A stretch of 64,000 nt of DNA, taken from assembly GCA_032622095.1 (NCBI GenBank), contig CP136063.1:31748987-31812986 (forward strand). Reading direction: 5' to 3'. Of this stretch, positions 15,144 through 58,303 are shown piece after piece. A program made the position numbers and the translations under genes. This DNA is from Siphonodentalium dalli. Taxonomy: Eukaryota; Mollusca; Scaphopoda; Gadilida; Siphonodentaliidae. The stretch's first letter is position 1, and the number at the start of each line of letters is the position of its first letter. The notes beneath the pieces are model-generated. The model ran no database searches. It was given only the letters and a program-made list of their open reading frames with translations, and was not told the DNA's origin.

Positions 15144-17684
15144 TGCCGCACGGCCCCCCATACCCTGCGTTGAGGTATCTATTTCACAACATTTTTCAAC
15201 TAAACAATGAATGCTGGCCTTATTATCTCACCATATATTTTCAATCGGTACTCCCCGCCACAAGTTGACGCCAAAAGTTCCGTGTCGGTGTATCTAAATC
15301 CTTTAATCGGACATTTCTAAACTGTCTAATGTTGGTTACCTCGATAAGTCGTCCATCTTCACGTTCTTGTTGACATTTTACACAAGGCCACGTGCTCGGA
15401 AGAAATACTGGGTAATTTACTACGTCCGGTTTGGCCTATAGTCCATTTCACGAATAACTATTGACTGTTGCGTTCACTGCAGACATAGTTTAGTCTCCGC
15501 GCGAAGAGATGTCGTAACGCTGTGGCTGCAGGCACGTTTATTGTTTTAAATAATGTTTTTTTTATAGAAGTGTTTTGTAATAATAATACATAATAATAAT
15601 TCATTCTGGCTTGACCTAGACCATTTTCAAACGAATATGGACATTTTGTTTCTCAGAATAATGCAGAATTAGCTGTAACCTACAAAAATCTAAAATAAAT
15701 ATGTATATAGGAGGTATCAAATTTGCTTCTAAAATAAATAAATACGACATTGCTTCACATTCCATGTATGTGCTAGCAGGGTAAGTCCTGTGTAGGAGAC
15801 TGAACTCAGAATGGAGCTTATGTTGCGTTCTGGGACGGAAAGTATCCAAACACAGCGATCTGTAAATGACAAAATAGGCCTACCAAGCTGAAAAGTTTTC
15901 GCGATCGCCGCACTGTTTTTTTTTAGATTTACGCTCGCTATATAGTCAACAAAACTCAAATAAAATCACGTCATGTTGCATTATTATGGTTTATTTCTCC
16001 ATTATACAGCACAAAACATGATTTAAGTGTCATTTTCCGCCTTAGTTTTATCCAACTTGGTTCTGCTTGGTATTTCTACGCACCCCTGCTTATCGTCGGC
16101 ATGCATTTTCTATGGGATATTTAGAACGGGTCTATAAAACTAATTAGGCTATAACTTTGTTATCTTTCATATTTTCCGTGAAATTCAAATATGTGCCAGG
16201 GACATATATCCCGTCCGGAATGTGCACAAACATTTCCAGTTTCTCATCGTATTTTTATTTATTTTATGCGACAAAATTGTCGTAAATGTCAGAAAACCAA
16301 ACTGACCAGTCTATGTTTTGCGTTATGAGCTAACGCTCGATGTACATCTATATATAGATTTAATGAGATTTTTTGACGTCCTTTTATACCCCATAATCAC
16401 TAAAATGAGATGTCTCTCACCCACCACATGATTTGTTAAAAGTGAAATTATAAGAAGTGAGATTGTTTTATCGGTTAGCAGATACATTTCCGGATAAAAC
16501 GGAGTGATCTTCATATCCCGTATATTCAGGAGATGCATCTTTCAATGATATATGTAATTTTTGTTTTGCTGATATATATCAAAAATCGACATCCCTGTAC
16601 CCCGTCATTACCGTCACGCGAAAATTTGAAGCTATTTAAGTTGTCCGTTTGTTAGACAAAAATGAAACTTATAGATTTATATCAATGTTCCATGCTTGTG
16701 TCGAATAGAAACCAGGTCCACATTAAATTTTGTCAAGTGCGTGGATAAATGATGATCACACTTACTCCGCTTATTTCTCGGCCAGAAATATGTGTTTTGA
16801 ACTTTTGATAACAATTTATTTGAGATAAAAACTGCTGCGGGCATGTCAGTCGGTGTGAACTTATCAGTCGCTGGGCATCGTGCATGGTTCAATAAGATCT
16901 AGTGATCGTTCCTTCGTCCATATAGATGACTTAAATATTCCATTGTCCGATCTAACAACAAATTTGTCGAAAATGTCCAATTTAATGTCAGTTTGCATAC
17001 CAAGCCAATAAAAAGAAACAAAATACGATGAATACTAATAGGTATCATGTCTATGACACATGCATGCAGCCATGGCGATTGGCGAACATCTACAAAGCCA
17101 CATATACCATAAAATGAGATTTTGTATGTAGGCCTTCCTAGCTATAGATATGCAGGTAAATCTTCAAGGCCTACAAATTACTAACATTTAACACTATGCT
17201 GTAATACTATATACACAAGACAGAAGTTATATTGTTCGCTTGGTTCAACTAGGATGTTTCACTATATTACACACTCACACCGTTGTAATGGTTTGCTAAC
17301 AATAAAATCTTGAAATCAGTTAACGGTTATTCGTGAAATGGACTATAGGCCAAACCGGTCGTAGTAAATTACCCAGTAGTTCTTCCGAGCACGTGGCCTT
17401 GTGTAAAATGTCAACAAGAACGTGAAGGTGGACGACTTATCGAGGTCACCAACATTAGACAGTTTAGAAATGTCCGATTAAAGGATTTAGATACACCGAC
17501 ACAGGGAACTTTTGGCGTCAACTTGTGGCGGGGAGTACCGACTGAAAATATATGGTGAGGTAATAAGGCTAGCATTCATTGTTTAGATGAAAAATGTTGT
17601 GAAATAGATAGCTCTACACAGGGTATGGCAGGCCGTCAGCCGCCCTAATGGGCAGTTTGAGCTGATCATTAGGGCGGCGTAGTG
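15131..17684. mobile_element. Long inverted-repeat transposon inside BEL gag
   Basis: Arms of about 310 bases (15159-15468 and 17316-17627) are about 95% identical in inverted orientation. Outside them, small hairpins lie at each edge (ggcactaga/tctagtgcc; gccgccctaatg/cattagggcggc). The outermost bases read CACTA on the left and TAGTG on the right. The 1.85-kb centre has only short frames and no transposase. A non-autonomous CACTA-like or fold-back element fits. No convincing target duplication was found, so the exact ends are uncertain. Confidence 0.6.
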
Positions 17685-20544: not shown

Positions 20545-21025
20545 TTAAAGGTGGATTATCTCTTTGTAAACATGTATTATATAGTTACCGGGGTATAAAA
20601 TATTAGATCTGAATCGAAGACTCCTGTCCGGAAATGCTTCTATCGATTAATATTAATTTTATTTCGAATATTTTCTGGTCTAAAAAGGTGTGTTTGTTCA
20701 GCTAACGAACAATATTGGTTACTGTTAACAGAGACCATAAATTATATTGTGCAATTTTGTCACAAATAAACGTCAATTACACTCATTATCGCTTATATCT
20801 GTGGAACAAAACAGTACAAACAACCAATCTGTGACATTTGACATTCGTTGCGTAGCCATAGGAACAGCTCAGTGCTCTATATCGCAATACGGTCTCATCC
20901 GAATGGTCGGTTCTAAAAATAGTAACATAAATGGGCCCGATTTAATATTCGAAATAAAATCAATATTAATTTATACCCACGCAACTATTTAAAATTTGTT
21001 ATTTAAAGAGATAATCCATCTTTAA
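20545..21025. mobile_element. M2 MITE, complete, TTAA-flanked
   Basis: The ends are TTAA-AGGTGGATTATCTCTTT and its near-exact reverse complement (20545-20548 and 21022-21025 are TTAA). The 481-bp body is an imperfect palindrome, with gtccggaa and taatattaat blocks in both orientations. Relatives lie at 48400-48850 and 61126-61306. It is inserted in the BEL 3' LTR. Confidence 0.8.
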
Positions 21026-27768: not shown

Positions 27769-28162
27769 GATGTCAGCACCGAAAAGGGCATTTCAAAAAG
27801 TGGTTTTAAACAGTGGAGGTCGGAATTGAACAATGTGATTTACATAGTCTATATGTTACAGATAGACACCTCGTTGGTGTTGGATATGCGGGAAAAACAA
27901 CACCGGATGGCCGAACGCCCGAATCGGGTTGTTTCTCTCGCATATCCAATACCAACGAGCTGTCTGCCTTACTTGAACATTTCTGACCGTCTGTTGGTTC
28001 AAGATGTCAGAAACCATGCAGATTCCAGAAAGAATCAAATCATGCTTATTTTATTGTGTAATATATAAACTTTGAAAAATTAAATATATATATTCTATTA
28101 CCCCATTCTCGAACCCCAAGCATGATACTGCCTATGTTGGCGATTAGCTTTAATTTAATTAA
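27769..28162 (+). repeat. ZF-associated repeat P, copy 2 (long form)
   Basis: It starts TGTCAGCACCGAAAAGGGC and has the hairpin acctcgttggt...accaacgagc at about 27866-27960. It extends to agcatgatactgcctatgtt and a ttaatttaattaa tail shared with copy 4 (61303-61665). No zinc-finger sequence lies beside it. Confidence 0.7.
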
Positions 28163-28920
28163 TAAATACGTAGTTGTCGTGTGCAATTGCCCATTGAATG
28201 AGGGCCGAACACGCACGAACTTGAACATTAATATGACATTGCTTGAAAACGTGACGCGACCGCACCCCGTATTCGAAAGGGGAACTTAAAGTTGGACTTA
28301 GCATTGTAGATAAGTACTGTTTGACTTATTGTCAAAACTGATTCTGTAACTATGTGTACTTGACGGTGCTATTTTGTTTTGTCCGTCGAAGACGACCGAA
28401 GTAATGTTCTAAACTTTCTGGGTCCGTGTTATCTAAATAGATATTACACAGTTATTTGTTATAAGCATGGCGTCCGTTTATAAGGGAAATATACATCACA
28501 AGCGCCCGGGAGGTAAATGACGATCCGGCCGATGATCCAAGTGTTTATATTGGAATACAAAATAATAGCAATTCTTCCGAGGAGCCGTTTTCGTTTGTGC
28601 ATTATTCCTGCTTATCGGATTTATTTATTCCATGAATTCGAAGTTGGATTTACAAGCAGTTCTTGACCAACGTAAGTTATCGAATGAGGTCCGGTGACGC
28701 AAGTGGTGGACCTTTATTGTAGTCGTTGCCTGTGTAAAATGGTCTTCAATGATTGCATTTGCGTATTGTCGGGTGAAGGCAACTACCAAATGTGTCACGG
28801 TTCAGGAGAGCGTATGTAGCTAACCCTCATGTATTTGTAAGATATGTGTGGTGACTGTGGTCTATCAATACCATGTCAAAAGATCGAAAAATTTCGCATT
28901 TTGACTTACAAATTCTTAAC
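28163..28920. other. Single-copy flank before tandem array
   Basis: No coding homology. The last bases (cattttgacttacaaattct, then taac) are the ancestral left edge of the duplicated region, lost in units B and C. Confidence 0.45.
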
Positions 28921-29944
28921 ATTCTAAGAAATTATATGTAATCAACGTAACTATTCCATTGAAGTTCTAATGCGGCGTACTCGGCATTACAAACTGATTT
29001 AGATTATCAACGTTTAAATATTTGGCATGATGTGTCGCCTCTCCGCATTCTATGTTGATTTGTCTTTGCATTTTCTTGTAAGAAAGCTTTATGTCACAGC
29101 CCATGTCAGTAACGCTAATAAGTGGACCAATCTATTGATTGAATGCTCGGGAGTGCATAGTTGGTCAATCAATGAGTGTTGCGAGAATACAATGCCTAGG
29201 AATATTTTATTTTAATCACGACATACCGTTTCGCATACATGCAAAGACATAATGATCTTTACAGTAAATAACGGTTGGTTACCGGATCTCACTGCGTTAT
29301 AATATAATAGCGAGTTTGCGATACCCGTCCAACGGGAACGGGTAGATTGGTGAACTTCGACACGGGTAATTGACCACTTTCAACACAGCACATTAAGCGG
29401 TCGCCAATTTCACCGGTATTGGTAAACACACAGACGGGTAGAAGGTGAGTACTCGACTGGTAATTTCCACTAGCGATTTATTAACCATAACTACCTGCAA
29501 TATATAAAAACCCCTGTGGAGCATTTAGCCACACTTTCCATGTGGTCTTTCATCTGAACATTTTATTCATAAAGGTATCATTTGGGTTAATTATCATGTT
29601 CATATTCTTGAAGCGGCTTCTAACCGATTGGAAACTACGGAAGACCAAACTGTTCATGACATGTATTGTATGCATGATCTCGAAGGCTATAATTATTCGT
29701 CATCGATGGTGAATGATGACTGAGTGATCGAATTAAAATATATTCCTATCCCACAATCCCCACTTTACTTCTTAATTTAAAAGTGTACACATTGAATACG
29801 CATGCAGATGCATATATATGTGAAGTTAAATTTATAAATTATATTAAATTTATGTTATGGTTTTGATCTAACTGTTTCATGTTTTTATTCTGGTTTATCT
29901 ATCGAGTTTCACAATTCTTGTTCTATTTTCATGTACACCTATAG

Positions 29945-30156
29945 ATGACTGAGAAGAAAAAGAACTTTCGCTTTTCTCGAAAATCGGACGCAGAGCTTAT
30001 GACAGAGGTTGTAGCAAGTAATCCATATCGGCAGCCGAAGAATTGGGCAGATGTTGCGGAACATATGCCAGACGGCGTTAGTGCAAGACGGTGCCGAGAG
30101 AGGGCTATATTGCTGGTCCAACAATTTAAAAGCTACGACAGAGAAGCATTGAAAAA
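29945..30156 (+). pseudogene. Harbinger Myb-like protein, exon 1 (unit A)
   Basis: 70 codons beginning MTEKKKNFRFSRKSDAEL, with a Myb/SANT-type helix pattern (NWADVAEHM ... ARRCRERAILLVQQF). Harbinger elements encode such a DNA-binding partner that brings the transposase to the element ends. The frame reaches a donor-like AAAAA|GTAAT at 30156. Unit A ends before any further exon, so this copy is orphaned. It differs from B and C by Asn for Ser at residue 7. Confidence 0.75.
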
Positions 30157-30924
30157 GTAATTTTAGCACTTTTTAATTTTTATTATGTAATGTCTGCCCA
30201 CTATATAAATTAACGGGGGTTCAGTGGCGTTGTTGGTGACTCCACAAAGGGGGTGTTTACCTTGGAATTTCCTACTGACACCCCCCCCCCCGAAACTCCA
30301 GGGATTTCCACCCCCAGCTTTCTGTTGGAATTCTCCAACCGTTATCATAATCTTTATATTTTTGTGTGTGAAAATTACCAGCATTCTAATAGCAGGAAAT
30401 ACCTTTTATAGGTGGAAATTTCCAACTCACAGCCATTCCAGTCAAAAAAATTTATCTATTTAAGGAGGCAAATTGTCTACTTGTGCTGTAAAATACAAAG
30501 ATTTTCCTTTTAAATATGCTTAGTGGCTGGAATATTGAACTATCAGGACAGTCTTTTCAACTAAATCTGCAGATATGACATTCCAATTATTGAACATTTG
30601 GATCTCTTTGAGTCAGTGATGGGGGGAGGGGTATCATTTTAGGTAGCGAATTCCCGCCAATACTTATATATTTTATATATGAGCAACCACAATATACCAC
30701 GCATGACAGTGATGTTGTGTTTTGAAGCCATGTATTGATCGCAATGGGTTTAATGGAGAGGGATCGGCCACTAATAGTTATATAGGCGTCTCCAAGGATT
30801 ATGATAATTTACTTAAATATTGGGGCTGTCAGGTTGCAAATTCCCAATACATGTAGTTGGAAAGCTTCATCTACCAGTTGGAACCCAAATGGTGGTCTGC
30901 AAATGGAATTTCGCGAATGAGTTG

Positions 30925-31159
30925 AAGGTACTCAATCCGATTAAGCACCGCTAAATTACTATTTATTTGGCTTCAGGGGTAAACAATATTTGATTCGAGT
31001 CGAGAAACCCACCCATCAAAGCTCAGAGTGATCAGATATTGATTTTTGAAGTTTGTTATTTCTCGAGATGTGTACTAATTATTGCCCCAGAAACACCTAT
31101 TCAAACGGACGAAGATGAATAACTCTAAAGTCAAGTGGTAATAATAACGCAATTTTGAC
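30925..31159. repeat. M1 MITE, truncated (unit A)
   Basis: Left arm only, starting aaggtactcaatccgatt. The A/B junction falls in the unpaired centre of the palindrome. Confidence 0.8.
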
Positions 31160-32181
31160 ATTCTAAGAAATTATATGTAATCAACGTAACTATTCCATTG
31201 AAGTTCTAATGTGGCGTACTCGGCATTACAAACTGATTTAGATTATCAACGTTTAAATATTTGGCATGATGTGTCGCCTCTCCGCATTCTATGTTGATTT
31301 GTCTTTGCATTTTCTTGTAAGAAAGCTTTATGTCACAGCCCATGTCAGTAACGCTAATAAGTGGACCAATCTATTGATTGAATGCTCGGGAGTGCATAGT
31401 TGGTCAATCAATGAGTGTTGCGAGAATACAATGCCTAGGAATATTTTATTTTAATCACGACATACCGTTTCGCATACATGCAAAGACATAATGATCTTTA
31501 CAGTAAATAACGGTTGGTTACCGGATCTCACTGCGTTATAATATAATAGCGAGTTTGCGATACCCGTCCAACGGGAACGGGTAGATTGGTGAACTTCGAC
31601 ACGGGTAATTGACCACTTTCAACACAGCACATTAAGCGGTCGCCAATTTCACCGGTATTGGTAAACACACAGACGGGTAGAAGGTGAGTACTCGACTGGT
31701 AATTTCCACTAGCGATTTATTAACCATAACTACCTGCAATATATAAAAACCCCTGTGGAGCATTTAGCCACACTTTCCATGTGGTCTTTCATCTGAACAT
31801 TTTATTCATAAAGGTATCATTTGGGTTAATTATCATGTTCATATTCTTGAAGCGGCTTCTAACCGATTGGAAACTACGGAAGACCAAACTGTTCATGACA
31901 TGTATTGTATGCATGATCTCGAAGGCTATAATTATTCGTCATCGATGGTGAATGATGACTGAGTGATCGAATTAAAATATATTCCTATCCCACAATCCCC
32001 ACTTTACTTCTTAATTTAAAAGTGTACACATTGAATACGCATGCAGATGCATATATGTGAAGTTAAATTTATAAATTATATTAAATTTATGTTATGGTTT
32101 TGATCTAACTGTTTCATGTTTTTATTCTGGTTTATCTATCGAGTTTCACAATTCTTGTTCTATTTTCATGTACACCTATAG

Positions 32182-32393
32182 ATGACTGAGAAGAAAAAGA
32201 GCTTTCGCTTTTCTCGAAAATCGGACGCAGAGCTTATGACAGAGGTTGTAGCAAGTAATCCATATCGGCAGCCGAAGAATTGGGCAGATGTTGCGGAACA
32301 TATGCCAGACGGCGTTAGTGCAAGACGGTGCCGAGAGAGGGCTATATTGCTGGTCCAACAATTTAAAAGCTACGACAGAGAAGCATTGAAAAA
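32182..32393 (+). pseudogene. Harbinger Myb-like protein, exon 1 (unit B)
   Basis: Same exon as in unit A, with Ser at residue 7 (KKKSFRF). An acceptor-like tatag precedes the ATG and a GTAAT donor follows LKK. Exons 2 and 3 of this copy follow at about 33767 and 34549. Confidence 0.75.
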
Positions 32394-33160
32394 GTAATTT
32401 TAGCACTTTTTAATTTTTATTATGTAATGTCTGCCCACTATATAAATTAACGGGGGTTCAGTGGCGTTGTTGGTGACTCCACAAAGGGGGTGTTTACCTT
32501 GGAATTTCCTACTGACACCCCCCCCCCCGAAACTCCAGGGATTTCCACCCCCAGCTTTCTGTTGGAATTCTCCAACCGTTATCATAATCTTTATATTTTT
32601 GTGTGTGAAAATTACCAGCATTCTAATAGCAGGAAATACCTTTTATAGGTGGAAATTTCCAACTCACAGCCATTCCAGTCAAAATTTTTTATCTATTTAA
32701 GGAGGCAAATTGTCTACTTATGCTGTAAAATACAAAGATTTTCCTTTTAAATATGCTTAGTGGCTGGAATATTGAACTATCAGGACAGTCTTTTCAACTA
32801 AATCTGCAGATATGACATTCCAATTATTGAACATTTGGATCTCTTTGAGTCAGTGATGGGGGAGGGGTATCATTTTAGGTAGCGAATTCCCGCCAATACT
32901 TATATATTTTATATATGAGCAACCACAATATACCACGCATGACAGTGATGTTGTGTTTTGAAGCCATGTATTGATCGCAATGGGTTTAATGGAGAGGGGT
33001 CGGCCACTAATAGTTATATAGGCGTCTCCAAGGATTATGATAATTTACTTAAATATTGGGGCTGTCAGGTTGCAAATTCCCAATACATGTAGTTGGAAAG
33101 CTTCATCTACCAGTTGGAACCCAAATGGTGGTCTGCAAATGGAATTTCGCGAATGAGTTG

Positions 33161-33582
33161 AAGGTACTCAATCCGATTAAGCACCGCTAAATTACTATTT
33201 ATTTGGCTTCAGGGGTAAACAATATTTGATTCGAGTCGAGAAACCCACCCATCAAAGCTCAGAGTGATCAGATATTGATTTTTGAAGTTTGTTATTTCTC
33301 GAGATGTGTACTAATTATTGCCCCAGAAACACCTATTCAAACGGACGAAGATGAATAACTCTAAAGTCAAGTGGTAATAATAACGCAATTTTGACCGAGA
33401 CCATCCCTTTGATGGCGTGTTTCTGGGGCACAAACAAGTGAAATAACAAAACTTCAAAAATTGATATCTGATCACTCTGAGCGTTGATGGGTAGGTTCCT
33501 CGACTCGAATAAATTACTTTTTACCCCCGAAGCCAAATAAATAGTAATTGATGAGGGTTTGATCGGATTTGAGTACCTTTAA
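33161..33582. repeat. M1 MITE, complete (unit B)
   Basis: Starts aaggtactcaatccgatt and ends aatccgatc reverse-complemented as gatttgagtacctttaa. The arms of about 175 bases are imperfect, with an unpaired centre of about 70 bases. It lies in the intron between Myb-like exons 1 and 2. Confidence 0.8.
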
Positions 33583-33766
33583 TTGGTGGCGCATTAAATT
33601 TATGCACATCAACTTTATATTTCAGTTCTGAAAGTTTGCTTGCATGAGGTCAGCATAAATTGTAAATTAAATACAGGCCTAATGCAAATTACTTTCATCG
33701 TACCTGGGGTGACCCTAACTATATTGATCAACTCTTCTCGTATGTTTGTATTCGTCTTTTTCAAAG

Positions 33767-33955
33767 ATCTGGGACAGAGAAATAATATACGACATTGTTA
33801 CAGTTGCTGCAGGAAGCGGTGGACCTGCAACCTGCAGGCAGAATCGGAGGAAAATCCGGAAAACTAAGAAGCCAGGGAAGCAACTGATGTGGCAGAACAA
33901 ACTGGATCAGACACCAGAAGACGGGCGTTGGAGGGGCGACCCAACAACGATGAAA
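33767..33955 (+). pseudogene. Harbinger Myb-like protein, probable exon 2 (unit B)
   Basis: It lies between a pyrimidine-rich acceptor (ttcgtctttttcaaag) and a donor GTATAT. It encodes an acidic stretch ESEENPEN, then DVAEQTGSDTRRRALEGR, in the style of the region after the Myb domain in Harbinger proteins. Unit B has a TAA where unit C reads GAA (ENEEAREA), so this copy is broken. The first third reads better in a different frame. Exon limits are inferred. Confidence 0.5.
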
Positions 33956-34189
33956 GTATATATTAATTTATAAATTATAAATTAATTAATTTAATTTTTT
34001 CATATATTTGATAAGCAGGAAACGCTCATTAAATTCTTAAAACCGTCAAAATATGTTTCCTCTTAGTCACTATGCCTGAGGCAAGTGTTAGTCGTAGTGC
34101 CTCGCCAAAATAACTCCAAATGCTTGTGACTAACCCTAAATTGGTCATATGGTCCAGATTTGTTTCTCAGTGTGCATTATTATTATAAT

Positions 34190-34528
34190 CAATAAATTGC
34201 AAAGTGATTAGATATCGATGTTTGAAGTTTGCGATTTCTATTGTTTGTGGGACAGAATCTTGCCGATCAAACGGACGGTCTTGAAGATAAGGATGGATAA
34301 CTCTAAAATCAAGTGGTTATTATTATTATCAATCTGTATCTACAAGACCATCCGTTTGATCGGCAACATCTGTCCCACAAACAAGTAGAAATCGCAAACT
34401 TCAAACATCGATATCTAATCACTCTGAGCTTTGATGGGTGGGTTCCTCGACTCAAACAAAATATTGTTTACCCCCGAAGCCAAAGAAATAGTAAATAAGA
34501 AGCGTCTGGTCGGATTTAGTACCTTTAA
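34190..34528. repeat. M1-related palindrome (unit B)
   Basis: The arms run from tgattagatatcgatgtttg / aacatcgatatctaatcac to gtccgtttgatcggc. The right end keeps the family terminus (gatttagtacctttaa). The left terminus is missing. It sits just upstream of the C-terminal Myb-like exon. Confidence 0.7.
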
Positions 34529-34548
34529 TGTAGTTCTTTCTATTACAG

Positions 34549-34792
34549 ACACTGATGAGCCAGCCAGGAAAAAACGACCGACAGCAATTGGATTCCTTAT
34601 GCAGAAAGCTGAGCAGGTCCGAGCATTTAGGGATCGAGAGCTGAGGTTACAAGAAGAACGCCTCAAACTTGACAGGGGAAGCGTTTAGAGTTGGATCGCA
34701 CGGAACGGCTCCAGCGGCTGGAACTGGAAAAGGAAGAGAAACAGTCGATGTTTGCATTAATGAAAACTTTAATTGATAAGCAAAATAAATGA
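34549..34792 (+). pseudogene. Harbinger Myb-like protein, C-terminal exon (unit B)
   Basis: After an acceptor (ttctattacag) it reads TDEPARKKRPTAIGFLMQKA, then a charged coiled-coil-like stretch REEL/LRLQEERLKL and, after a frame change at a G run near 34678, TERLQRLELEKEEKQSMF and a stop at 34790. This is the usual Lys/Glu-rich C-terminus of the protein. The frame change is shared with unit C. Confidence 0.65.
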
Positions 34793-34831
34793 GTAACTTC
34801 AAACTTCAACTGCGTGTTGTTCTCAATCCCG

Positions 34832-35890
34832 TCATTTGACATGCAGTGGTCGATTATCACGTTTCTCTGCCGACTCCAGATACAACTCGAGTTCTGGTGG
34901 TTCACAATCGAAAAATGTGCTGACTGTGCTCCCATATAGGCAAGTGTGACAATTTGTCAGCAGGGTACCTACTATGTAGTACTTTCCAACAGGTTGTAAA
35001 TATTGTTTCAAATTCTTCTTAAAGTCGAGAAATGCAAATGTCTTCACAACTTTCCCGAAGCTCCATTCAACTGAAACCCTGACTGCTGACATTTCTTTAT
35101 TGAATTGTTTTTCTTCGTCACTCAGTCTATTCCTGAAAGGTGCCATGAGGTGTGGTCTCAATGGGTGTGCCGGGTCTCCATATAGAGCACAAATGTGACC
35201 GTCGGTCCTTGTCATGCACTGTTCAATTTTAGGCAGTAGTCCACTCAAACGCAACATACCCGCATCGTGGTGTCGTCGTTCCACTGGTCCATACAAGTTA
35301 GCAATAAGTCCGTCCGGAGTTGTGACAGCTTGGAATTTCAGACAGTGGAAACGCTTGTGGCCGCTAAAAACAATCTTTTGGTTTTTTCTAGACCGACAGA
35401 TCGGTCTCGCGGCACCATCTATAAACCGCCCAACAATTATTTAAAGGGGTGTCATGTCCGTTGATAGCATCCGTATGTCTGTCCAAATGTTCCTGTTGCA
35501 GCCATGGGTGGTCCAGTTCTTCCAGTAAATGGTGATGTTCGGTATATATGTGGTCAATTGTCTCGTTAAAAATTATCGAAATTTCAGATATCGAACGTCC
35601 GAACTGTCCACCAAATCAGTCAAACGATTTGGATAAGTAAGTCTACGGAGAGTTATGCACAGCACATCTCTAATCCCGAGACGACGGTACCGTTGGTGCA
35701 TATGAATTTTTCAGGGATGCACATAGCTTTGACTATCCTCTGTATGTCGTCCTTTAAGAATCAAAAATGCTTCGCACATTCCCCATCAGTAGCTTGGTTA
35801 AAATCAAATCTTTTGGTTAAACGTGCACTGATTTCTCATTTGAAAGGACATCCCATGGCGCATTTCAACACCAACAATGATCAATATTGT
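34832..35890 (-). pseudogene. Harbinger-type DDE transposase (unit B), frameshifted
   Basis: On the minus strand, facing the Myb-like gene with about 40 bases between their stops. Blocks in order are LKDDIQRIVKAMCIPEKF, CITLRRLTYPNRLTDLV, the first catalytic Asp in FIDGAARPICR (about 35415), the second in YGDPAHPLRPHL, the Glu in SVEWSFGKVV, then the C-terminus through YIVGTLLTNCHTCLYG. This is the DDE_Tnp_4 / HARBI1 arrangement. Frameshifts before FIDGA and near LCIT are shared with unit C. A further one-base deletion (gaactgtcc) is private to B. The C-terminus is intact here but not in C. Confidence 0.8.
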
Positions 35891-36352
35891 AGTGGGAATA
35901 ATATAGGCCGATACAGAACGAAAGATCGATATTTTAACCTTATTATCTTCGCATTCTTACCATAGTCACAGGGGGTGTCAGCTGTCTTCTATGTTTCGCA
36001 CATACATGAAGCAAACGCTCTTCATTCAAACCATATATAGTGAATAGACTACTATTAGTTCACAAGTTCAACTTTTTAACCTACCGCCGGTTAGATCCGG
36101 ACAACAATCTCAATTTTTGGGATAAATTTCGGCATCCTTCGATCTGTTTAAAGATTCCAGTCAAATTTTCACTCAACGTGACAAAATATTCCCCAACTAA
36201 TAGAAGGTGCAAATTCGGTTTTATATTTGACTGAAAGTTAATGCAGGGAATAATTGGACCCTGAGTCTAAACTTTACACTGAATCTTTGTTGAAAAATTA
36301 ACTAACGCAATTGTATTAGAGCATAATTGTATCATAACCGATAATCCATAGC

Positions 36353-36413
36353 GACTATCGCCCATACGAGTGTGACTTATGGCCGAGAGAATTTAGATAC
36401 TCGGGTTCGGTGA
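36353..36413 (+). pseudogene. Zinc-finger remnant (unit B)
   Basis: About 20 codons read DYRPYECDLWPREFRYSGSV, the start of a C2H2 finger (linker, first Cys, then Trp in place of the second Cys). It stops being finger-like at the minisatellite. It resembles the remnant at 57254. Confidence 0.5.
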
Positions 36414-36449
36414 CAAAAGAATCTACACCGGTAGTCGACCACAGGACCC

Positions 36450-36720
36450 ATATAAAAATTTACCCGGGTAAAACTGGGGGTTTATCCGGTTTAATCCATG
36501 GTAAACCCCGGTTCACCCGGGTAAAATAATATTCAACCCGGGTAAACCCCATGTAAAAAGTTATTATACCATGGTTAATCCAGGTATATCAAACCTATAT
36601 CGAGATTTACCCGGGTGTCTTATATATTTGTAGGGATTTACCCAGGTGTTTCTCCATCTCATGGTATACCCAGGTGTTTATCCATCTCATGATATACCGG
36701 GGTGTTTTTACTGTCCATTA
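36450..36720. repeat. ACCCGGGTAAA minisatellite (unit B)
   Basis: Begins cccatataaaaatttacccg and repeats acccgggtaaa and acccaggtgttt words for about 270 bases. The same family forms the large array at 56255-57245. Confidence 0.75.
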
Positions 36721-36786
36721 TGGAAAAAGTTACCAACAGGAGCGAACTTGAATATGTATTTTCGCCCAAGCCTTGGTGCTCAAACC

Positions 36787-37234
36787 TTAACTCTTTACTT
36801 CCCATAAGCGTCCCTGGACGCTTTGCACTATTTTCCCCATAAGCGCCTGTGGACGCCTCGCAGTATATCCCTAGAAGCGCATAAGAGCGCGTTACCAGAC
36901 TTCCCCACAAGCGCTTTAGAGCGCCACACTAGGCCCAGACTGTACTAATGGGTTCGCCCATATGCTCCCCGCTAGTTTCTAATAGAGACCGCCCGGTTAT
37001 GTAAACTCGTTATTTGCCTATCTAATAACAATAAACGTGGCACCGTGGGCATCGCGCGCGACAGATGCTGTGTTACTTGGGGTTTATATTGGGGACAGAC
37101 ATCAGTGGTACCATTCTAAGTATTTACGAACAATATGGCTGAAAATTTTTCGAAACAGCAAGTGATCGACATGTTAATGGGAGATGATAGCAATTTTAGC
37201 GGAGATTGCAGTTTCTCGTCATCAGAGGATTCAG
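36787..37234 (+). mobile_element. piggyBac element, left end only (unit B)
   Basis: TTAA (36787-36790) followed by CTCTTTACTTCCC and a series of short palindromes of the form aagcgcctgtggacgc, then the first 32 codons of the transposase (MAENFSKQQVIDML). It is cut off at the B/C junction. Confidence 0.8.
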
Positions 37235-38265
37235 AATTTTGACATTCTAAGAAATTATATGTAATCAACGTAACTATTCCATTGAAGTTCTAATGTGGCG
37301 TACTCGGCATTACAAACTGATTTAGATTATCAACGTTTAAATATTTGGCATGATGTGTCGCCTCTCCGAATTCTATGTTGATTTGTCTTTGCATTTTCTT
37401 GTAAGAAAGCTTTATGTCACAGCCCATGTCAGTAACGCTAATAAGTGGACCAATCTATTGATTGAATGCTCGGGAGTGCATAGTTGGTCAATCAATGAGT
37501 GTTGCGAGAATACAATGCCTAGGAATATTTTATTTTAATCACGACATACCGTTTCGCATACATGCAAAGACATAATGATCTTTACAGTAAATAACGGTTG
37601 GTTACCGGATCTCACTGCGTTATAATATAATAGCGAGTTTGCGATACCCGTCCAACGGGAACGGGTAGATTGGTGAACTTCGACACGGGTAATTGACCAC
37701 TTTCAACACAGCACATTAAGCGGTCGCCAATTTCACCGGTATTGGTAAACACACAGACGGGTAGAAGGTGAGTACTCGACTGGTAATTTCCACTAGCGAT
37801 TTATTAACCATAACTACCTGCAATATATAAAAACCCCTGTGGAGCATTTAGCCACACTTTCCATGTGGTCTTTCATCTGAACATTTTATTCATAAAGGTA
37901 TCATTTGGGTTAATTATCATGTTCATATTCTTGAAGCGGCTTCTAACCGATTGGAAACTACGGAAGACCAAACTGTTCATGACATGTATTGTATGCATGA
38001 TCTCGAAGGCTATAATTATTCGTCATCGATGGTGAATGATGACTGAGTGATCGAATTAAAATATATTCCTATCCCACAATCCCCACTTTACTTCTTAATT
38101 TAAAAGTGTACACATTGAATACGCATGCAGATGCATATATGTGAAGTTAAATTTATAAATTATATTAAATTTATGTTATGGTTTTGATCTAACTGTTTCA
38201 TGTTTTTATTCTGGTTTATCTATCGAGTTTCACAATTATTGTTCTATTTTCATGTACACCTATAG

Positions 38266-38477
38266 ATGACTGAGAAGAAAAAGAGCTTTCGCTTTTCTCG
38301 AAAATCGGACGCAGAGCTTATGACAGAGGTTGTAGCAAGTAATCCATATCGGCAGCCGAAGAATTGGGCAGATGTTGCGGAACATATGCCAGACGGCGTT
38401 AGTGCAAGACGGTGCCGAGAGAGGGCTATATTGCTGGTCCAACAATTTAAAAGCTACGACAGAGAAGCATTGAAAAA
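38266..38477 (+). pseudogene. Harbinger Myb-like protein, exon 1 (unit C)
   Basis: Identical in protein to the unit B copy, with the same donor site. Exons 2 and 3 lie at about 39852 and 40643. Confidence 0.75.
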
Positions 38478-39245
38478 GTAATTTAAGCACTTTTTAATTT
38501 TTATTATGTAATGTCTGCCCACTATATAAATTAACGGGGGTTCAGTGGCGTTGTTGGTGACTCCACAAAGGGGGTGTTTACCTTGGAATTTCCTACTGAC
38601 ACCCCCCCCCCCCCGAAACTCCAGGGATTTCCACCCCCAGCTTTCTGTTGGAATTCTCCAACCGTTATCATAATCTTTATATTTTTGTGTGTGAAAATTA
38701 CCAGCATTCTAATAGCAGGAAATACCTTTTATAGGTGGAAATTTCCAACTCACAGCCATTCCAGTCAAAAAAATTATCTATTTAAGGAGGCAAATTGTCT
38801 ACTTATGCTGTAAAATACAAAGATTTTCCTTTTAAATATGCTTAGTGGCTGGAATATTGAACTATCAGGACAGTCTTTTCAACTAAATCTGCAGATATGA
38901 CATTCCAATTATTGAACATTTGGATCTCTTTGAGTCAGTGATGGGGGAGGGGTATCATTTTAGGTAGCGAATTCCCGCCAATACTTATATATTTTATATA
39001 TGAGCAACCACAATATACCACGCATGACAGTGATGTTGTGTTTTGAAGCCATGTATTGATCGCAATGGGTTTAATGGAGAGGGGTCGGCCACTAATAGTT
39101 ATATAGGCGTCTCCAAGGATTATGATAATTTACTTAAATATTGGGGCTGTCAGGTTGCAAATTCCCAATACATGTAGTTGGAAAGCTTCATCTACCAGTT
39201 GGAACCCAAATGGTGGTCTGCAAATGGAATTTCGCGAATGAGTTG

Positions 39246-39667
39246 AAGGTACTCAATCCGATTAAGCACCGCTAAATTACTATTTATTTGGCTTCAGGGG
39301 TAAACAATATTTGATTCGAGTCGAGAAACCCACCCATCAAAGCTCAGAGTGATCAGATATTGATTTTTGAAGTTTGTTATTTCTCGAGATGTGTACTAAT
39401 TATTGCCCCAGAAACACCTATTCAAACGGACGAAGATGAATAACTCTAAAGTCAAGTGGTAATAATAACGCAATTTTGACCGAGACCATCCCTTTGATGG
39501 CGTGTTTCTGGGGCACAAACAAGTGAAATAACAAAACTTCAAAAATTGATATCTGATCACTCTGAGCGTTGATGGGTAGGTTCCTCGACTCGAATAAATT
39601 ACTTTTTACCCCCGAAGCCAAATAAATAGTAATTGATGAGGGTTTGATCGGATTTGAGTACCTTTAA
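39246..39667. repeat. M1 MITE, complete (unit C)
   Basis: The same insertion as 33161-33582 in unit B, copied by the tandem duplication. Confidence 0.8.
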
Positions 39668-39851
39668 TTGGTGGCGCATTAAATTTATGCACATCAACTT
39701 TATATTTCAGTTCTGAAAGTTTGCTTGCATGAGGTCAGCATAAATTGTAAATTAAATACAGGCCTAATGCAAATTACTTTCATCGTACCTGGGGTGACCC
39801 TAACTATATTGATCAACTCTTCTCGTATGTTTGTATTCGTCTTTTTCAAAG

Positions 39852-40040
39852 ATCTGGGACAGAGAAATAATATACGACATTGTTACAGTTGCTGCAGGAA
39901 GCGGTGGACCTACAACCTGCAGGCAGAATCGGAGGAAAATCCGGAAAACGAAGAAGCCAGGGAAGCAACTGATGTGGCAGAACAAACTGGATCAGACACC
40001 AGAAGACGAGCGTTGGAGGGGCGACCCAACAACGATGAAA
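39852..40040 (+). pseudogene. Harbinger Myb-like protein, probable exon 2 (unit C)
   Basis: As in unit B but without the internal stop, giving PENEEAREATDVAEQTGSD. This indicates that the stop in B arose after the duplication. Confidence 0.5.
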
Positions 40041-40283
40041 GTATATATTAATTTATAAATTATAAATTAATTAATTAAATTAATTTAATTTTTTCATATA
40101 TTTGATAAGCAGGAAACGCTCATTAAATTCTTAAAACCGTCAAAATATGTTTCCTCTTAGTCACCATGCCTGAGGCAAGTGTTAGTCGTAGTGCCTCGCC
40201 AAAATAACTCCAAATGCTTGTGACTAACCCTAAATTGGTCATATGGTCCAGATTTGTTTCTCAGTGTGCATTATTATTATAAT

Positions 40284-40622
40284 CAATAAATTGCAAAGTG
40301 ATTAGATATCGATGTTTGAAGTTTGCGATTTCTATTGTTTGTGGGACAGAATCTTGCCGATCAAACGGACGGTCTTGAAGATAAGGATGGATAACTCTAA
40401 AATCAAGTGGTTATTATTATTATCAATCTGTATCTACAAGACCATCCGTTTGATCGGCAACATCTGTCCCACAAACAAGTAGAAATCGCAAACTTCAAAC
40501 ATCGATATCTAATCACTCTGAGCTTTGATGGGTGGGTTCCTCGACTCAAACAAAATATTGTTTACCGCCGAAGCCAAAGAAATAGTAAATAAGAAGCGTC
40601 TGGTCGGATTTAGTACCTTTAA
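40284..40622. repeat. M1-related palindrome (unit C)
   Basis: Counterpart of 34190-34528 in the second tandem unit. Confidence 0.7.
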
Positions 40623-40642
40623 TGTAGTTCTTTCTATTACAG

Positions 40643-40886
40643 ACACTGATGAGCCAGCCAGGAAAAAACGACCGACAGCAATTGGATTCCTTATGCAGAA
40701 AGCTGAGCAGGTCCGAGCATTTAGGGACCGAGAGCTGAGGTTACAAGAAGAACGCCTCAAACTTGAAAGGGGAAGCGTTTAGAGTTGGATCGCACGGAAC
40801 GGCTCCAGCGGCTGGAACTGGAAAAGGAAGAGAAACAGTCGATGTTTGCATTAATGAAAACTTTAATTGATAAGCAAAATAAATGA
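40643..40886 (+). pseudogene. Harbinger Myb-like protein, C-terminal exon (unit C)
   Basis: Same as the unit B exon apart from a few substitutions (Glu for Asp before RGSV), with the same frame change at the G run. Confidence 0.65.
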
Positions 40887-40925
40887 GTAACTTCAAACTT
40901 CAACTGCGTGTTGTTCTCAATCCCG

Positions 40926-41970
40926 TCATTTGACATGCAGTGGTCGATTATCACGTTTCTCTGCCGACTCCAGATACAACTCGAGTTCTGGTGGTTCACA
41001 ATCGAAAAATGTGCTGACTGTGCTCCCATATAGGCAAGTGTGACAATTTGTCAGCAGGGTATCTACTATGTAATTGTAAATATAGTTTCAAATTCTTCTT
41101 AAAGTCGAGAAATGCAAATGTCTTCACAACTTTCCCGAAGCTCCATTCAACTGAAACCCTGACTGCTGACATTTCTTTATTGAATTGTTTTTCTTCGTCA
41201 CTCAGTCTATTCCTGAAAGGTGCCATGAGGTGTGGTCTCAATGGGTGTGCCGGGTCTCCATATAGAGCACAAATGTGACCGTCGGTCCTTGTCATGCGCT
41301 GTTCAATTTTAGGCAGTAGTCCACTCAAACGCAACATACCCGCATCGTGGTGTCGTCGTTCCACTGGTCCATACAAGTTAGCAATAAGTCCGTCCGGAGT
41401 TGTGACAGCTTGGAATTTCAGACAGTGGAAACGCTTGTGGCCGCTAAAAACAATCTTTTGGTTTTTTCTAGACCGACAGATCGGTCTCGCGGCACCATCT
41501 ATAAACCGCCCAACAATTATTTAAAGGGGTGTCATGTCCGTTGATAGCATCCGTATGTCTGTCCAAATGTTCCTGTTGCAGCCATGGGTGGTCCAGTTCT
41601 TCCAGTACATGGTGATGTTCGGTATATATGTGGTCAATTGTCTCGTTAAAAATTATCGAAATTTCAGATATCGAACGTCCGAACATGTCCACCAAATCAG
41701 TCAAACGATTTGGATAAGTAAGTCTACGGAGAGTTATGCACAGCACATCTCTAATCCCGAGACGACGGTACCGTTGGTGCATATGAATTTTTCAGGGATG
41801 CACATAGCTTTGACTATCCTCTGTATGTCGTCCTTTAAGAATCAAAAATGCTTCGCACATTCCCCATCAGTAGCTTGGTTAAAATCAAATCTTTTGGTTA
41901 AACGTGCACTGATTTCTCATTTGAAAGGACATCCCATGGCGCATTTCAACACCAACAATGATCAATATTG
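40926..41970 (-). pseudogene. Harbinger-type DDE transposase (unit C), frameshifted
   Basis: Same domain order as in B. The N-terminal half is open for 104 codons (GIRDVLCITLRRL ... IYTEHHHVLEELDHPWLQ), then shifts frame before FIDGA. The C-terminal half is open for 126 codons from MYGPVERRHHDAGM to the region after the catalytic Glu, where a deletion of about 14 bases near 41070 destroys the last 50 residues. Neither B nor C can make a full transposase. Confidence 0.8.
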
Positions 41971-42433
41971 TAGTGGGAATAATATAGGCCGATACAGAAC
42001 GAAAGATCGATATTTTAACCTTATTATCTTCGCATTCTTACCATAGTCACAGGGGGTGTCAGCTGTCTTCTATGTTTCGCACATACATGAAGCAAACGCT
42101 CTTCATTCAAACCATATATAGTGAATAGACTACTATTAGTTCACAAGTTCAACTTTTTAACCTACCGCCGGTTAGATCCGGACAACAATCTCAATTTTTG
42201 GGATAAATTTCGGCATCCTTCGATCTGTTTAAAGATTCCAGTCAAATTTTCACTCAACGTGACAAAATATTCCCCAACTAATAGAAGGTGCAAATTCGGT
42301 TTTATATTTGACTGAAAGTTAATGCAGGGAATAATTGGACCCTGAGTCTAAACTTTACACTGAATCTTTGTTGAAAAATTAACTAACGCAATTGTATTAG
42401 AGCATAATTGTATCATAACCGATAATCCATAGC

Positions 42434-42494
42434 GACTATCGCCCATACGAGTGTGACTTATGGCCGAGAGAATTTAGATACTCGGGTTCGGTGA
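42434..42494 (+). pseudogene. Zinc-finger remnant (unit C)
   Basis: The same fragment as in unit B, copied by tandem duplication. Confidence 0.5.
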
Positions 42495-42530
42495 CAAAAG
42501 AATCTACACCGGTAGTCGACCACAGGACCC

Positions 42531-42801
42531 ATATAAAAATTTACCCGGGTAAAACTGGGGGTTTATCCGGTTTAATCCATGGTAAACCCCGGTTCACCCG
42601 GGTAAAATAATATTCAACCCGGGTAAACCCCATGTAAAAAGTTATTATACCATGGTTAATCCAGGTATATCAAACCTATATCGAGATTTACCCGGGTGTC
42701 TTATATATTTGTAGGGATTTACCCAGGTGTTTCTCCATCTCATGGTATACCCAGGTGTTTATCCATCTCATGATATACCGGGGTGTTTTTACTGTCCATT
42801 A
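42531..42801. repeat. ACCCGGGTAAA minisatellite (unit C)
   Basis: Second copy of the array at 36450-36720. Confidence 0.75.
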
Positions 42802-43215
42802 TGGAAAAAGTTACCAACAGGAGCGAACTTGAATATGTATTTTCGCCCAAGCCTTGGTGCTCAAACCTTAACTCTTTACTTCCCATAAGCGTCCCTGGAC
42901 GCTTTGCACTATTTTCCCCATAAGCGCCTGTGGACGCCTCGCAGCATATCCCTAGAAGCGCATAAGAGCGCGTTACCAGACTTCCCCACAAGCGCTTTAG
43001 AGCGCCACACTAGGCCCAGACTGTACTAATGGGTTCGCCCATATGCTCCCCGCTAGTTTCTAATAGAGACCGCCCGGTTATGTAAACTCGTTATTTGCCT
43101 ATCTAATAACAATAAACGTGGCACCGTGGGCATCGCGCGCGACAGATGCTGTGTTACTTGGGGTTTATATTGGGGACAGACATCAGTGGTACCATTCTAA
43201 GTATTTACGAACAAT

Positions 43216-43591
43216 ATGGCTGCAAAATTTTCGAAACAGCAAGTGATCGACATGTTAATGGGAGATGATAGCAATTTTAGCGGAGATTGCAGTTTCTCGT
43301 CATCAGAGGATTCAGATGACGATTACTCTCCACCCGCTACCAGCGACAATCTGACCTCCATCGCCGATAGTAGCTTGAATACTAACCCGATTGGCTGGTC
43401 ATATAAACTTCGAAAGGTATCACTTCCGCCATTTTACCCAAATGACAGGGCCAGTTATACCAGATGAATTCGACACTGATACAGCAACAGCTTTGGACTA
43501 TTTCAATTTGATGTTCTCGCCATCGAAGTATGCCGAAATAGCCAGGCATACTAACAACTATGCCAAGTGGAAAATGGAAGAATATATATAG
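43216..43591 (+). pseudogene. piggyBac transposase, N-terminal fragment
   Basis: The first frame (43216-43467) starts MAAKFSKQQVIDMLMGDD, followed by an acidic Ser-rich stretch SSSEDSDDDYSPP, as in many piggyBac N-termini. A one-base frame change near 43430 leads to MTGPVIPDEFDTDTATALDY, FNLMFSPSKYAEIA and HTNNYAKWKM, the conserved block before the catalytic domain. A stop follows at 43589, and the DDD catalytic region is absent. The intact protein would excise and insert elements precisely at TTAA. Confidence 0.85.
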
Positions 43592-43772
43592 TGCATGGAA
43601 ATCATAGAGAACCCAATGTATATCGACTGTATATTGATATACTCAGTTAACATTCAAACTATCCAACTATATTAATTGTTCACGCAACACATTTCATGAT
43701 ATAATTTCAAATTTGGTGAATTGCACGACTTGACTCATTTATAATTTCAAACCAAAGAATTGTCGACAACAC

Positions 43773-44767
43773 CTGATCAAATGGTCATGCTAATACGGTT
43801 GGGCCCTGCTGAATTGATATGATGCTGTTAGGGCAAACTGTTGCTGTTAACAAAAATTACCGTTATTTTATTTTTAATTTGTCTCAATCGCGGTGTTCCG
43901 ATAATATGAAAATCCATTATGTGTATCAAATTATAACATTCAAAAACAAATTTATTGCGAAATATTTTTAAAGATACGGCCGGCGTTCGCGGTGGGTATG
44001 GTGTTCAAATATTCATCTATGTCAAAAACCACCATAAACAGAAGGAATAGTAAGAAAAAGACAGACCTTGTTCTTATGCCAATCATAAATATGGCATAAA
44101 CAGTGTTATAGTCAATTTGTTCCCCTTTGTTATGTAAACAAAAGCAAAAAACGTTACGTTTTCTGGCTTTTGTTTAGATCCGGGTATGGTAAACATAAAG
44201 AGCGTTATTTGTTACTGTTTTCCTAATATGGAAATAATAGAGAGCGTTTATATCATTTTTGTATGATTATCCAATATAATTTCGGCCTGTTATGTAAACA
44301 GAATCACAACTTATGTAACACGAGCAGTCTCTTGTTTACGTACACATTTGTACGTCTTGACGACAATATACTATTTATGCGCTGATTATGTTTGGCATAT
44401 GTGTGGAACTGTATATATGTTGGCGTTCATTCTGTTGATGGCGATTTGATCAAATATAAGTATTTCTGCAACAAATGCCGCCCGTGACTTTAATAATGGT
44501 TGCATTAGTTGAAAATCGACTATAATCAAGATGGCTATTTGCGTCGTTTTAGAAACACCAGCGCAGTTATTATTATATTTTTCAAAAATATATATGTTCT
44601 TGAATGTTTTTTTTTATCAAATCGCTCTAGTTATACAATCACCGTGAAAATTACAACTTTAGAAAAATAACGGTACTTTTGGTAACGGAATCAGTTTGCC
44701 CTACCCGCATCATAGCAATTCAACATGACCACCGGCATCATAGCATATTAGCATGACCACTTGACCA
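43773..44767. mobile_element. Non-autonomous TIR element nested in piggyBac
   Basis: Ends of about 100 bases are inverted: ctgatcaaatggtcatgcta ... gggcaaactg at the left, and their reverse complement ending in tagcatgaccacttgaccag at the right. A third end of the same family lies at 51666-51787. There is no coding capacity, and I could not define a target duplication. Confidence 0.65.
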
Positions 44768-46088
44768 GTGGTGGACACACGACAGCTCAGCTACAATGAT
44801 GTATTATTGTTTCAAACCGCTGAACATCAAATGGCTGGTGTTACATGCATGTTTCAGTCGGACGTACTTATGTTACAAATTGCTTGATCGAAGATTTCAC
44901 AAACTATTTTCTCAAACATGTTTGGTTTCTTGAGTAAAAGGAAAGATCTATATCAACACAATTTGTACATTGTGCGGTCCTTTTTCTGATAATGTTGGTA
45001 TATGTTTCTGGTGTTTCTGACGTATGCGATAAAATAGTGTGTATTCGCACACATATATACCGGTATATGGATTGTTTCAAATTTCTCTTATATTCTATAA
45101 TGCTAAATTTTAAATGGTGATGCCATACAGTGTTTGCACGAAGATGAACTTCCACACTTAGCACGACGTGTTATATAATAGGTGTTTTTGAAGTCGAAAA
45201 TGTTGATAAATGTTACATTTGCATGTTAGTTTATAGTAATAAACAATCGCAAACATCACCGTTCTGAAAATATATATTTAAAACCTTACTTGAATTTCGT
45301 AGCGTGACATCGCGTTATTTTGGCTGAACGAAATAGAGGATATATAGCGTTCTGAATTGATACCGGACAAATATATTTATTTATTTTCGCGAGCGACTAG
45401 CTGCACTTTTCGCCAGCGGAAATACATTATTTCTGGAAGTAGCAACAGAAACTCATTATCTCCAGAAACAATGTACTTTCGGTCACGATAAGTTGGTCAG
45501 GAAATTTAGTCCTTGGGCCATATCATGAGATATTTCTGGTATCCACTTAAAATATTATAGATATCCTCTCTTTAATTGTCTTCTAGATAAGAAGAAAACA
45601 GAACACATTTGCTTTGAATTGTTTACAAAATACTTTTGGGAGTTGGTGACTTTTTCCAAATAAGACTGGTCTAAATCCGGAGCAAGGATCATTTGTATAA
45701 GACATATTTTATTGTCACAATGTGACATTCGTGTGCATACATTTCAGAGCTGACGAAACGCGCAATACATATACTTTAATATACTATTATTGAACTAATC
45801 CCAATGAAAAAGTCAAAGATACTAGCTTGCCCAGGGCTCTTATACTCAGGTGTCGACTTTTCTCATATTACGACACACGTCCCGGCTTACGCTCATTATC
45901 CCCAGTTGGAGCTGTCACTCCAATAGATTACCCTCACTGCGTCAACACAGTAACAGGTTTACCACCATTTATTGAGCAACGGGATACTTTCCGACAAGCC
46001 AAATACTTATGGGGAAATAGCATCTGGTACTTGATAGCTGCAGGGAGATGGCGGGGTGGTTTATACAGCTAGTGTGGGAACTAAAGAG
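44768..46088. other. Right part of piggyBac element, non-coding
   Basis: No transposase blocks were recognised. An 81-codon frame at 45827-46072 lies in the subterminal region and has no family match. It is probably non-coding. Confidence 0.45.
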
Positions 46089-46164
46089 TTAAATTACAAC
46101 AACATATTTCACATGTATAGTATGGATTACTATTACATTAATTAATTAATTAATACCAGGTGTA

Positions 46165-48399: not shown

Positions 48400-48850
48400 T
48401 TAAAGGTGGATTATCTCTTTGTAAACATGTATTATTTAGTTACCGGGGTATAAAATATTAGATTTGAATCGAAGACTCCTGTCCGGAAATGCTTTTATCG
48501 ATTAATATTAATTTTATTTCGGATATTTTCTGGTCTAAAAAGGTGTGTTTGTTCCGCTAACGAACAATAGTGGTCACTGTTAACAGACACCAGAAATTTT
48601 ATTTAACAATTTTGTCACAAATAAACGTTAATTATACTTATTAGCACTTATATATGTGGAACAAAACAATACAGACAACCAATTTGTGACATTTGACTTT
48701 CGTTGCGTAGCCGTAGGAACAGCTCAGTGCTCTATATCGCAATATGGTATCATCCGAATGGTCTGTTCTAAAAATAGTAACATGAACGGTCCCGATTTAA
48801 TATTCGAAATAAAATCAATATTAATTGATAGAAGCTTTTCCGGACAGGGG
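48400..48850. repeat. M2 MITE, 3'-truncated
   Basis: Begins TTAAAGGTGGATTATCTC and is about 90% like 20545-20970. It retains a gatagaagcttttccggac segment missing from that copy, and lacks the right terminus. Confidence 0.75.
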
Positions 48851-56254: not shown

Positions 56255-57245
56255 ATCCCCACCCAGGTGAACCTTGGTGTTATTCACCCATGTGTTCCTT
56301 GGTGTTTCCTACCCATGTGTATCTTGGTGTTTCCCACCCAGTTGTACCTTGGTGTTTTCCTACCCAGGTATACCTTGGTGTTTCCTTACTTGTGTGTACC
56401 TTGGGGTTTCTAACCCAGGTGCATCTCAATGTTTCCACCCAGGTGTACCTTGGTGTTTTCGACCCAGGTGTTTCCCCAGGTGTGTCTACCAGGGTATATC
56501 CCAGGTGTTCTTAAGCAGACTCAACTCAATGATTTACCCTGGTGTACCCCAGTATTTTTACCCAGGTTTAACTCAAGTGCAACCACTCTGACAAACCCTG
56601 GTGTTCCAACACCAGGATATAACAGGGTGGTATACCTGGGATACATCTGGGTAAAACTGATGGGGTACACCAGTGTAAAATATAAGCGAGTGGTACCTGC
56701 TTAAAATACCCGAGGTATTCCCCCTGGTGGAAACACCCGGGGGAAACCCGGGGAAAACACCAAGGTATACCTGGGTGGAAACACTGGGAAATCCACCTGG
56801 GTAAGAAAACACCAAGGTACACCGGGGTAAGAAAACACCAAGGTACACCTGGGTTGGAAACATCAAGATACACCTGGGTAAGAAACACCTGGGTGGGAAA
56901 CACCCAGGTAGGAAACACCAGGGTACACCTGTGTGAATAACACCAAGGTACACCTGGGTGGGAAACACCCATGTAGGAACACCAGGGTACACCTAGGGGA
57001 ATAACACCAAGTTACACCTGGGTGGGAAACACCCAGGTAGGAAGCACCAGGGTACACCTGGGTGTGGTCACCTGTGTAATTACACCCAGGTTTATCCACA
57101 CCAGGGTTTTATCCAGTTTCAGCTGGGTTAATCATGGTAAAACCCAGGTTTCAGGGAGTCTTGATGGTTGGTGGATGCGTTGGTAGATATATACCCGGGT
57201 TTTGGCCCAAAAAACCAGGGTGGATTTACCCGGGTAAATTTTTAT
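56255..57245. repeat. Inverted minisatellite array, about 1 kb
   Basis: Units of 21-24 bases read cccaggtgtaccttggtgtt up to about 56620, then in reverse orientation (aacaccaaggtacacctggg) from about 56740 to 57130. The array ends in acccgggtaaatttttatat, the mirror of the start at 36450. Open frames on both strands across it (VYLGVSHPG-type repeats) are artefacts. Confidence 0.85.
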
Positions 57246-57880: not shown

Positions 57881-58303
57881 TTATTGTATATGACGCGTGT
57901 GTTCAGTACAGGGGCGTTTCTTTGGACACGAGTTTAAACTGCATCGTCTTTCTGATAAATTTAACTCTTGCATGAAATGTTCTGTTATATTTAGTCAGGC
58001 ATTCCGTTTTGACTATGTACGGAGTGATTGAGCCATCAACAATGGAGACTGGTCCGGAGAATACGTCTGAAACACATTTAATGGAATCGTTTAGCGGGTT
58101 GTACAATGGTACGAAGCAAATGGATGTTCCTTCCTATCAGTGCGATCTATGCTGGAAATCATACACCACATCTGCAGATGTGCTGTTACATACGAGAATT
58201 CACGCTAGAGATCGCCCACATGAATGTGATATGTGCAAGAAATCATTTACTGACTCGAGTCACCTGACGAAACATAAGAAGAATCACAGGGGGGGGTCGC
58301 AGT

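Follow-up and report, generated by a model that had tools for sequence, protein, structure and literature searches.

How did three copies of one transposon-rich segment come to lie head to tail in the genome of Siphonodentalium dalli, and in which order were they made? The window, that is, the whole stretch of 64,000 nucleotides analyzed here, is carried by contig 3 of a 2.2-Gb, 9-contig genome and contains no N. Within it we distinguish three units, A, B, and C, which are more than 99% alike, together with the following features.

28715–28920, plus strand: left flank, belonging to a dispersed repeat and containing the ancestral left edge ...TTACAAATTCTTAAC; L001 is a 96% match to 28715–29224.
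28921–31159, plus strand: unit A, 2239 bp, whose last 238 bp (30922–31159) are the left half of a MITE.
31151–31160, plus strand: joint 1, AATTTTGAC followed by the nucleotide A, where the end of unit A is joined to the start of B; 2-bp overlap (AC).
31160–33395, plus strand: unit B, 2236 bp, delimited by self-comparison.
33158–33582, plus strand: intact foldback MITE, 425 bp, in B plus the sequence after B, recognized by its inverted arms, its fold, and relatives with the same ends.
33396–37234, plus strand: 3.84 kb after B, repeated after C, including a DDE_Tnp_4 frame (34832–35440, minus strand).
36787–37234, plus strand: truncated left end of a piggyBac-like element, made up of TTAA (36787–36790) and the next 444 bp, with 98–99% identity to many genome copies.
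37234–37235, plus strand: joint 2, GATTCAG then AATTTTGAC; 1-bp overlap (A).
37235–43315, plus strand: second 6.08-kb copy, comprising a 9-base tag (37235–37243), unit C (37244–39480, 2237 bp), then 3.84 kb.
42868–46092, plus strand: whole piggyBac-like element, with TTAA at 42868–42871 and 46089–46092, spanning the ancestral right edge 43315/43316.

Self-comparison of the window aligned 28911–31159 with 31151–33395 at 99.5% identity over 2249 columns, and 31151–37235 with 37235–43316 at 99.2% identity over 6097 columns; the two large units measure 6084 and 6081 bp. Of the 20-mers in the 521 bases that precede A, none is found again downstream as far as 47000, and none of those in 43316–46092 is present in 28001–42860, so that both outer edges are unique in the regions compared. 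As in tandem (direct) duplication, the copies lie head to tail, each adds a single new joint, and the outer flanks are unique; as in serial or nested duplication, the first joint is found again inside the second copy.

Other repeats occur elsewhere in the window. Two 84-bp tandem arrays (399–1788 and 58208–60424) are about 80% alike and oppositely oriented, and their consensus has the look of C2H2 zinc-finger repeats. Two arrays of ~25-bp units (56258–56471 and 56753–57059) lie about 300 bp apart, with consensuses that look like mutual reverse complements. We also observe a direct pair at 93% (20545–20975 and 48400–48830), an inverted pair at 94% (15150–15467 and 17317–17636), and a 40-bp tandem repeat of 5.8 copies at 63768–63998, reaching the window end.

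The order of the duplications is written in the junctions. The sequence before A reads CGCATTTTGAC TTACAAATTCTTAAC, ending in CTTAAC just before the unit start ATTCTAAG. At the A/B junction, AACGCAATTTTGAC is followed by ATTCTAAG, and at the start of C we read GAGGATTCAG, then the tag AATTTTGAC, then ATTCTAAG. Both B and C are preceded by AATTTTGAC, nine bases of the MITE loop, whereas A is preceded by its own old left edge. The sequence-only reading had placed the A/B joint, with A at 2239 bp, exactly where direct reading finds it to the base, and had given C a start made of the tag and the same first unit base as B, which the junctions also display. The 20-mer across the A/B junction, AATTTTGACATTCTAAGAAA, occurs exactly twice in the 2.2-Gb genome, at the starts of B and C (its reversed control pattern has 0 occurrences there), and GAGGATTCAGAATTTTGAC, spanning the start of C, has a single occurrence. 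Since the tag of C repeats the nine bases that end A and leads into the unit's first base, as at A/B, the joint existed already when C was copied. The junctions thus indicate that the 2.24-kb duplication came first, and that the 6.08-kb duplication came second and copied the junction of the first. Conversion as a source of the tag was rejected by reasoning, the tag being at the very edge of homology.

This order, also proposed from the sequence alone, is in agreement with the relatives of the left repeat. An A-type edge directly precedes the unit start, with small differences, in 19 of 21 readable loci (matches beginning past base 30 of the unit were omitted from this count), while one of the remaining two shows a deletion at the edge (L016) and the other a different sequence (L019); the tag is at the left edge of none of the 21. 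A substitution shared by B and C, described below, points the same way. The A-type left edge is ancestral, as had been suggested, although the 15 extra bases attributed to it are an effect of alignment: by chance, CGCATTTTGAC, which resembles CGCAATTTTGAC of the MITE loop, lies 15 bases farther out from the break in the old left edge. Similarly, many genome matches begin at the tag because ATTCTTAAC resembles AATTTTGAC; the candidate natural start of the left repeat at AATTTTGAC, suggested by these matches, is ruled out by reading the edges. The 96% copy of 28715–29224 noted above is inverted, lies about 203 kb upstream on the same contig, and keeps the A-type edge.

The break of the first duplication, at 33395/33396, falls in the terminal loop of the MITE, where AATTTTGAC sits, and the MITE half that ends A is identical to its counterpart in B (30922–31159 versus 33158–33395, 0 differences over 238 bp). 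The inverted arms pair 33170–33290 with 33449–33569 at 86% and 33310–33345 with 33404–33439 at 75%, the spacer being 58 nt. The whole-MITE DNA fold reaches z −20.9, with 0 of 100 shuffles folding as well; the tip by itself (33340–33450) folds no better than shuffles (116/200). The origin of the tag in the middle of the MITE, another claim of the sequence-only reading, is confirmed by all nine relatives whose alignment is uninterrupted, at 89% or above (L022, L027–L034), in which the loop is unbroken and AACGCAATTTTGAC continues into the right MITE half. Five Harbinger-like relatives (L021, L023–L026) have a 68-bp loop deletion in common.

The MITE family is large: the 17-mer AATAACGCAATTTTGAC occurs 3489 times in the genome, and the 24-mer formed by AATAACGCAATTTTGAC plus the continuation CGARACC 231 times. 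Eighteen of the 20 copies sampled by the 17-mer show a different continuation, TGTGTTCTGGG or near it, and at least two loop forms exist, diverging directly after AATTTTGAC. A role of the MITE loop as a general break hotspot is not supported, none of 20 copies chosen by the left half (20 of 3489 places) being broken there.

At the right edge, the piggyBac-like element is cut before C and whole only after C, the 6.08-kb unit ending about 444 bases into it; the listed genome matches to the cut-off end stop at the break, which is simply where the query sequence finishes. The whole element has TTAA on both sides and matching inverted ends, on which the name piggyBac-like mainly rests, and a DDE_Tnp_1_7 match of 13.4 bits is below the cut-off of 22.4. 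It was recently mobile, given its 99.3–99.6% identity to three genome copies (L037, L040, L041) over nearly its full length (42867/8–46036). In an alignment with four relatives (2803 gap-free columns), this copy after C has 3 private substitutions and differs from the relatives at 9–15 columns, so its insertion too was recent on this scale.

The single-copy order is preserved elsewhere in the genome. It is unbroken in L022, from the unit into the following sequence, at 92–93% identity (32539–35829, one alignment), and L021 and L023–L026 show the same order within the stretches compared, but with the 68-bp loop deletion. The DDE_Tnp_4 frame on the minus strand scores 73.1 bits (cut-off 24.8), and a 71-residue frame has a Myb-like match of 14.9 bits, below the cut-off of 24.4. 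Harbinger transposases are accompanied by a Myb-like partner. The duplicated DNA is mobile-element sequence, probably including a PIF/Harbinger-like element, and the best explanation needs no function for the duplication.

The base-by-base alignment of A, B, and C that had been proposed as a check returned a single derived substitution common to B and C (29964 in A coordinates, where six of six relatives agree with A), with none common to A and B or to A and C when compared with the relatives. Unit A carries three derived substitutions of its own, at 28973 (of 22 rows from 21 loci, 19 carry the T of B and C, three carry adenine, and none the C of unit A), 30483 (six of six relatives match B and C), and 30763 (two of six carry the B/C base, four have a gap). 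Within the unit there are no B-specific and three C-specific substitutions, and the 3.84 kb after B add eight B-specific and five C-specific changes, B being slightly uneven (0 changes in 2.24 kb versus 8 in 3.84 kb).

For timing, 16 changes were counted along the B and C branches (6.08 kb), with 3 assigned to A and 1 to the stem. This count leaves out all indels, the A/T tract at 32685–32688, 34993 beside a 14-bp gap, and 37146, which was merged with 37142 as one change and carries the B base in one of six relatives. In six of seven relatives the B-side query finds G at 33827, where the C-side query finds a gap in all seven, and at 34673 the B-side query finds A in four and a gap in three, the C-side query A in all seven. 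This dates the second duplication to 1.27 substitutions per kb on each branch and puts 0.38 per kb between the two steps, so that the interval amounts to 0.30 of the age (95% range 0.02–1.13). The two steps therefore appear close in time, the interval being marked by one substitution and its lower bound lying near zero; conversion between B and C could also produce their shared substitution.

No long near-identical repeats of the kind used in NAHR occur at the breakpoints; the exact overlaps, of 2 bp and 1 bp, are consistent with end joining or template switching rather than with long-repeat recombination. Among 1482 random pairs, 23% reach the local similarity within 25 bp seen at joint 1 and 98% that seen at joint 2, so that it does not rise above background; a stricter post hoc test, asking for an 8-mer that ends at most 2 bases from one break and lies within 25 of the other, is passed by only 0.53% of 200,000 draws. 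Just 9 bp separate the second start from the first joint; simple arithmetic done after the fact puts the chance of this at 0.15% if uniform over 6.08 kb either side, or 0.9% over 1 kb. Such proximity is unlikely for two unrelated breaks and counts against two separate events. The right break sits in a hairpin whose stem is 8 bp and whose loop is 10 nt long (fold z −3.8, 0/200 shuffles; ~1.4% of window positions score as high), and the left break in a weak 6-bp stem (24/200 shuffles fold as well; ~8% of positions). Hairpins at all three breaks are only a hint, because the idea arose after the joints were seen.

We favor, with a probability of about 0.7, a history in which a transposon-rich segment was duplicated in tandem twice in succession, the second duplication being nested on the joint that the first had left. 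In the single-copy state, the left repeat was followed by a PIF/Harbinger-like element holding the foldback MITE and then by the piggyBac-like element. The MITE loop (33395) was first joined back to 28921, yielding A, B, and the new joint AATTTTGAC/ATTCTAAG, after which a segment from 9 bases before this joint to about 444 bases into the piggyBac-like element was duplicated, C inheriting the scar. Both joints probably arose by end joining or template switching at sites sharing next to no homology (2 bp, 1 bp), in two separate events a short time apart, perhaps favored by the MITE hairpin.

The 9-bp proximity leaves two explanations: either a fragile MITE tip was used on both occasions, or a single event involved two switches. 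The 68-bp loop deletion in five relatives slightly supports the former, but all 20 MITE copies sampled by the left half are unbroken, and a 58-nt spacer is long for stalling in eukaryotic cells, for which PMC7999016 describes frequent stalling with a 12-bp spacer and not with 52 bp. In the latter, one replicative event with two template switches would have run from the MITE loop to 28921, on into the piggyBac-like element, and back onto the fresh joint, giving the same joint order but no time and no intermediate haplotype between the joints. The nearby second start and the nearly equal ages suit this account, and multi-switch events per cell division are proposed for PLP1 gains (PMC6902434). 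It is nevertheless improbable, since the second switch must land on a joint existing only in newly made DNA, and the substitution common to B and C at 29964 calls for elapsed time, an error of copying within the event, or conversion afterwards. That both duplications were a single replicative accident at the MITE hairpin tip, with the second switch re-copying the joint of the first, seems to us quite improbable; if it were true, foldback MITEs would seed nested tandem duplications, and scars would record the order of switches within an event.

The sequences following the two tags might also be two haplotypes of one locus, B-rest and C-rest, assembled head to tail. Their 0.3% substitutions lie within the range of ordinary heterozygosity. 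Such an artefact is unlikely given a window free of N, flanks before A and after C that occur once, and a joint 2 that is abrupt, overlaps by 1 bp, and starts within 9 bp of another real joint, and it would still leave the A/B duplication to be explained separately. The reverse order, with the 6.08-kb duplication first and the nine-base tag of C as an independent short templated insertion, can appeal to such insertions at replicative joints, including an 11-bp case (PMC6902434). We consider it extremely unlikely because two identical breakpoints, the last tag base (33395) and the first unit base (28921), would both have to be chosen twice; moreover, the joint 20-mer is found nowhere else in the genome, and no substitution is common to A and B against C and the relatives.

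Two serial duplications, our preferred reading, make this locus one more clean instance of a rearrangement type already known, serial tandem duplication with 1–2 bp overlaps, neat but not surprising, and no effect is shown for the duplication itself. The case is unusually complete: each breakpoint lies inside a repeat whose intact form exists elsewhere in the same genome, so that every joint can be polarized without a second individual. Reading joints in this way could be automated to order nested duplications genome-wide. A literature search over titles and abstract openings of open-licence papers found no nested duplication ordered by its own scar, from which we do not claim absence.

Among known systems, PLP1 copy gains are non-recurrent tandem duplications or triplications formed by microhomology-guided template switching (FoSTeS/MMBIR), according to PMC6902434. 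They share with this locus the direct copies, joint overlaps of 0–2 bp, more than one joint per locus, and short tags at the joints; unlike them, the locus is evolutionary and not that of a patient, and the tag is a piece of an earlier joint, which orders the joints. Two copy-gain breakpoints that lie very close recall breakage-replication/fusion with adjacent parallel breakpoints (PMC12807874), but the breakpoints there are equally oriented, whereas here a segment end (33395) and a segment start (33387 in MITE coordinates) face opposite ways. Finally, as in palindrome-associated rearrangements (PMC7999016), one breakpoint per duplication lies in the loop region of a long foldback, although the product here is a direct and not a palindromic duplication.
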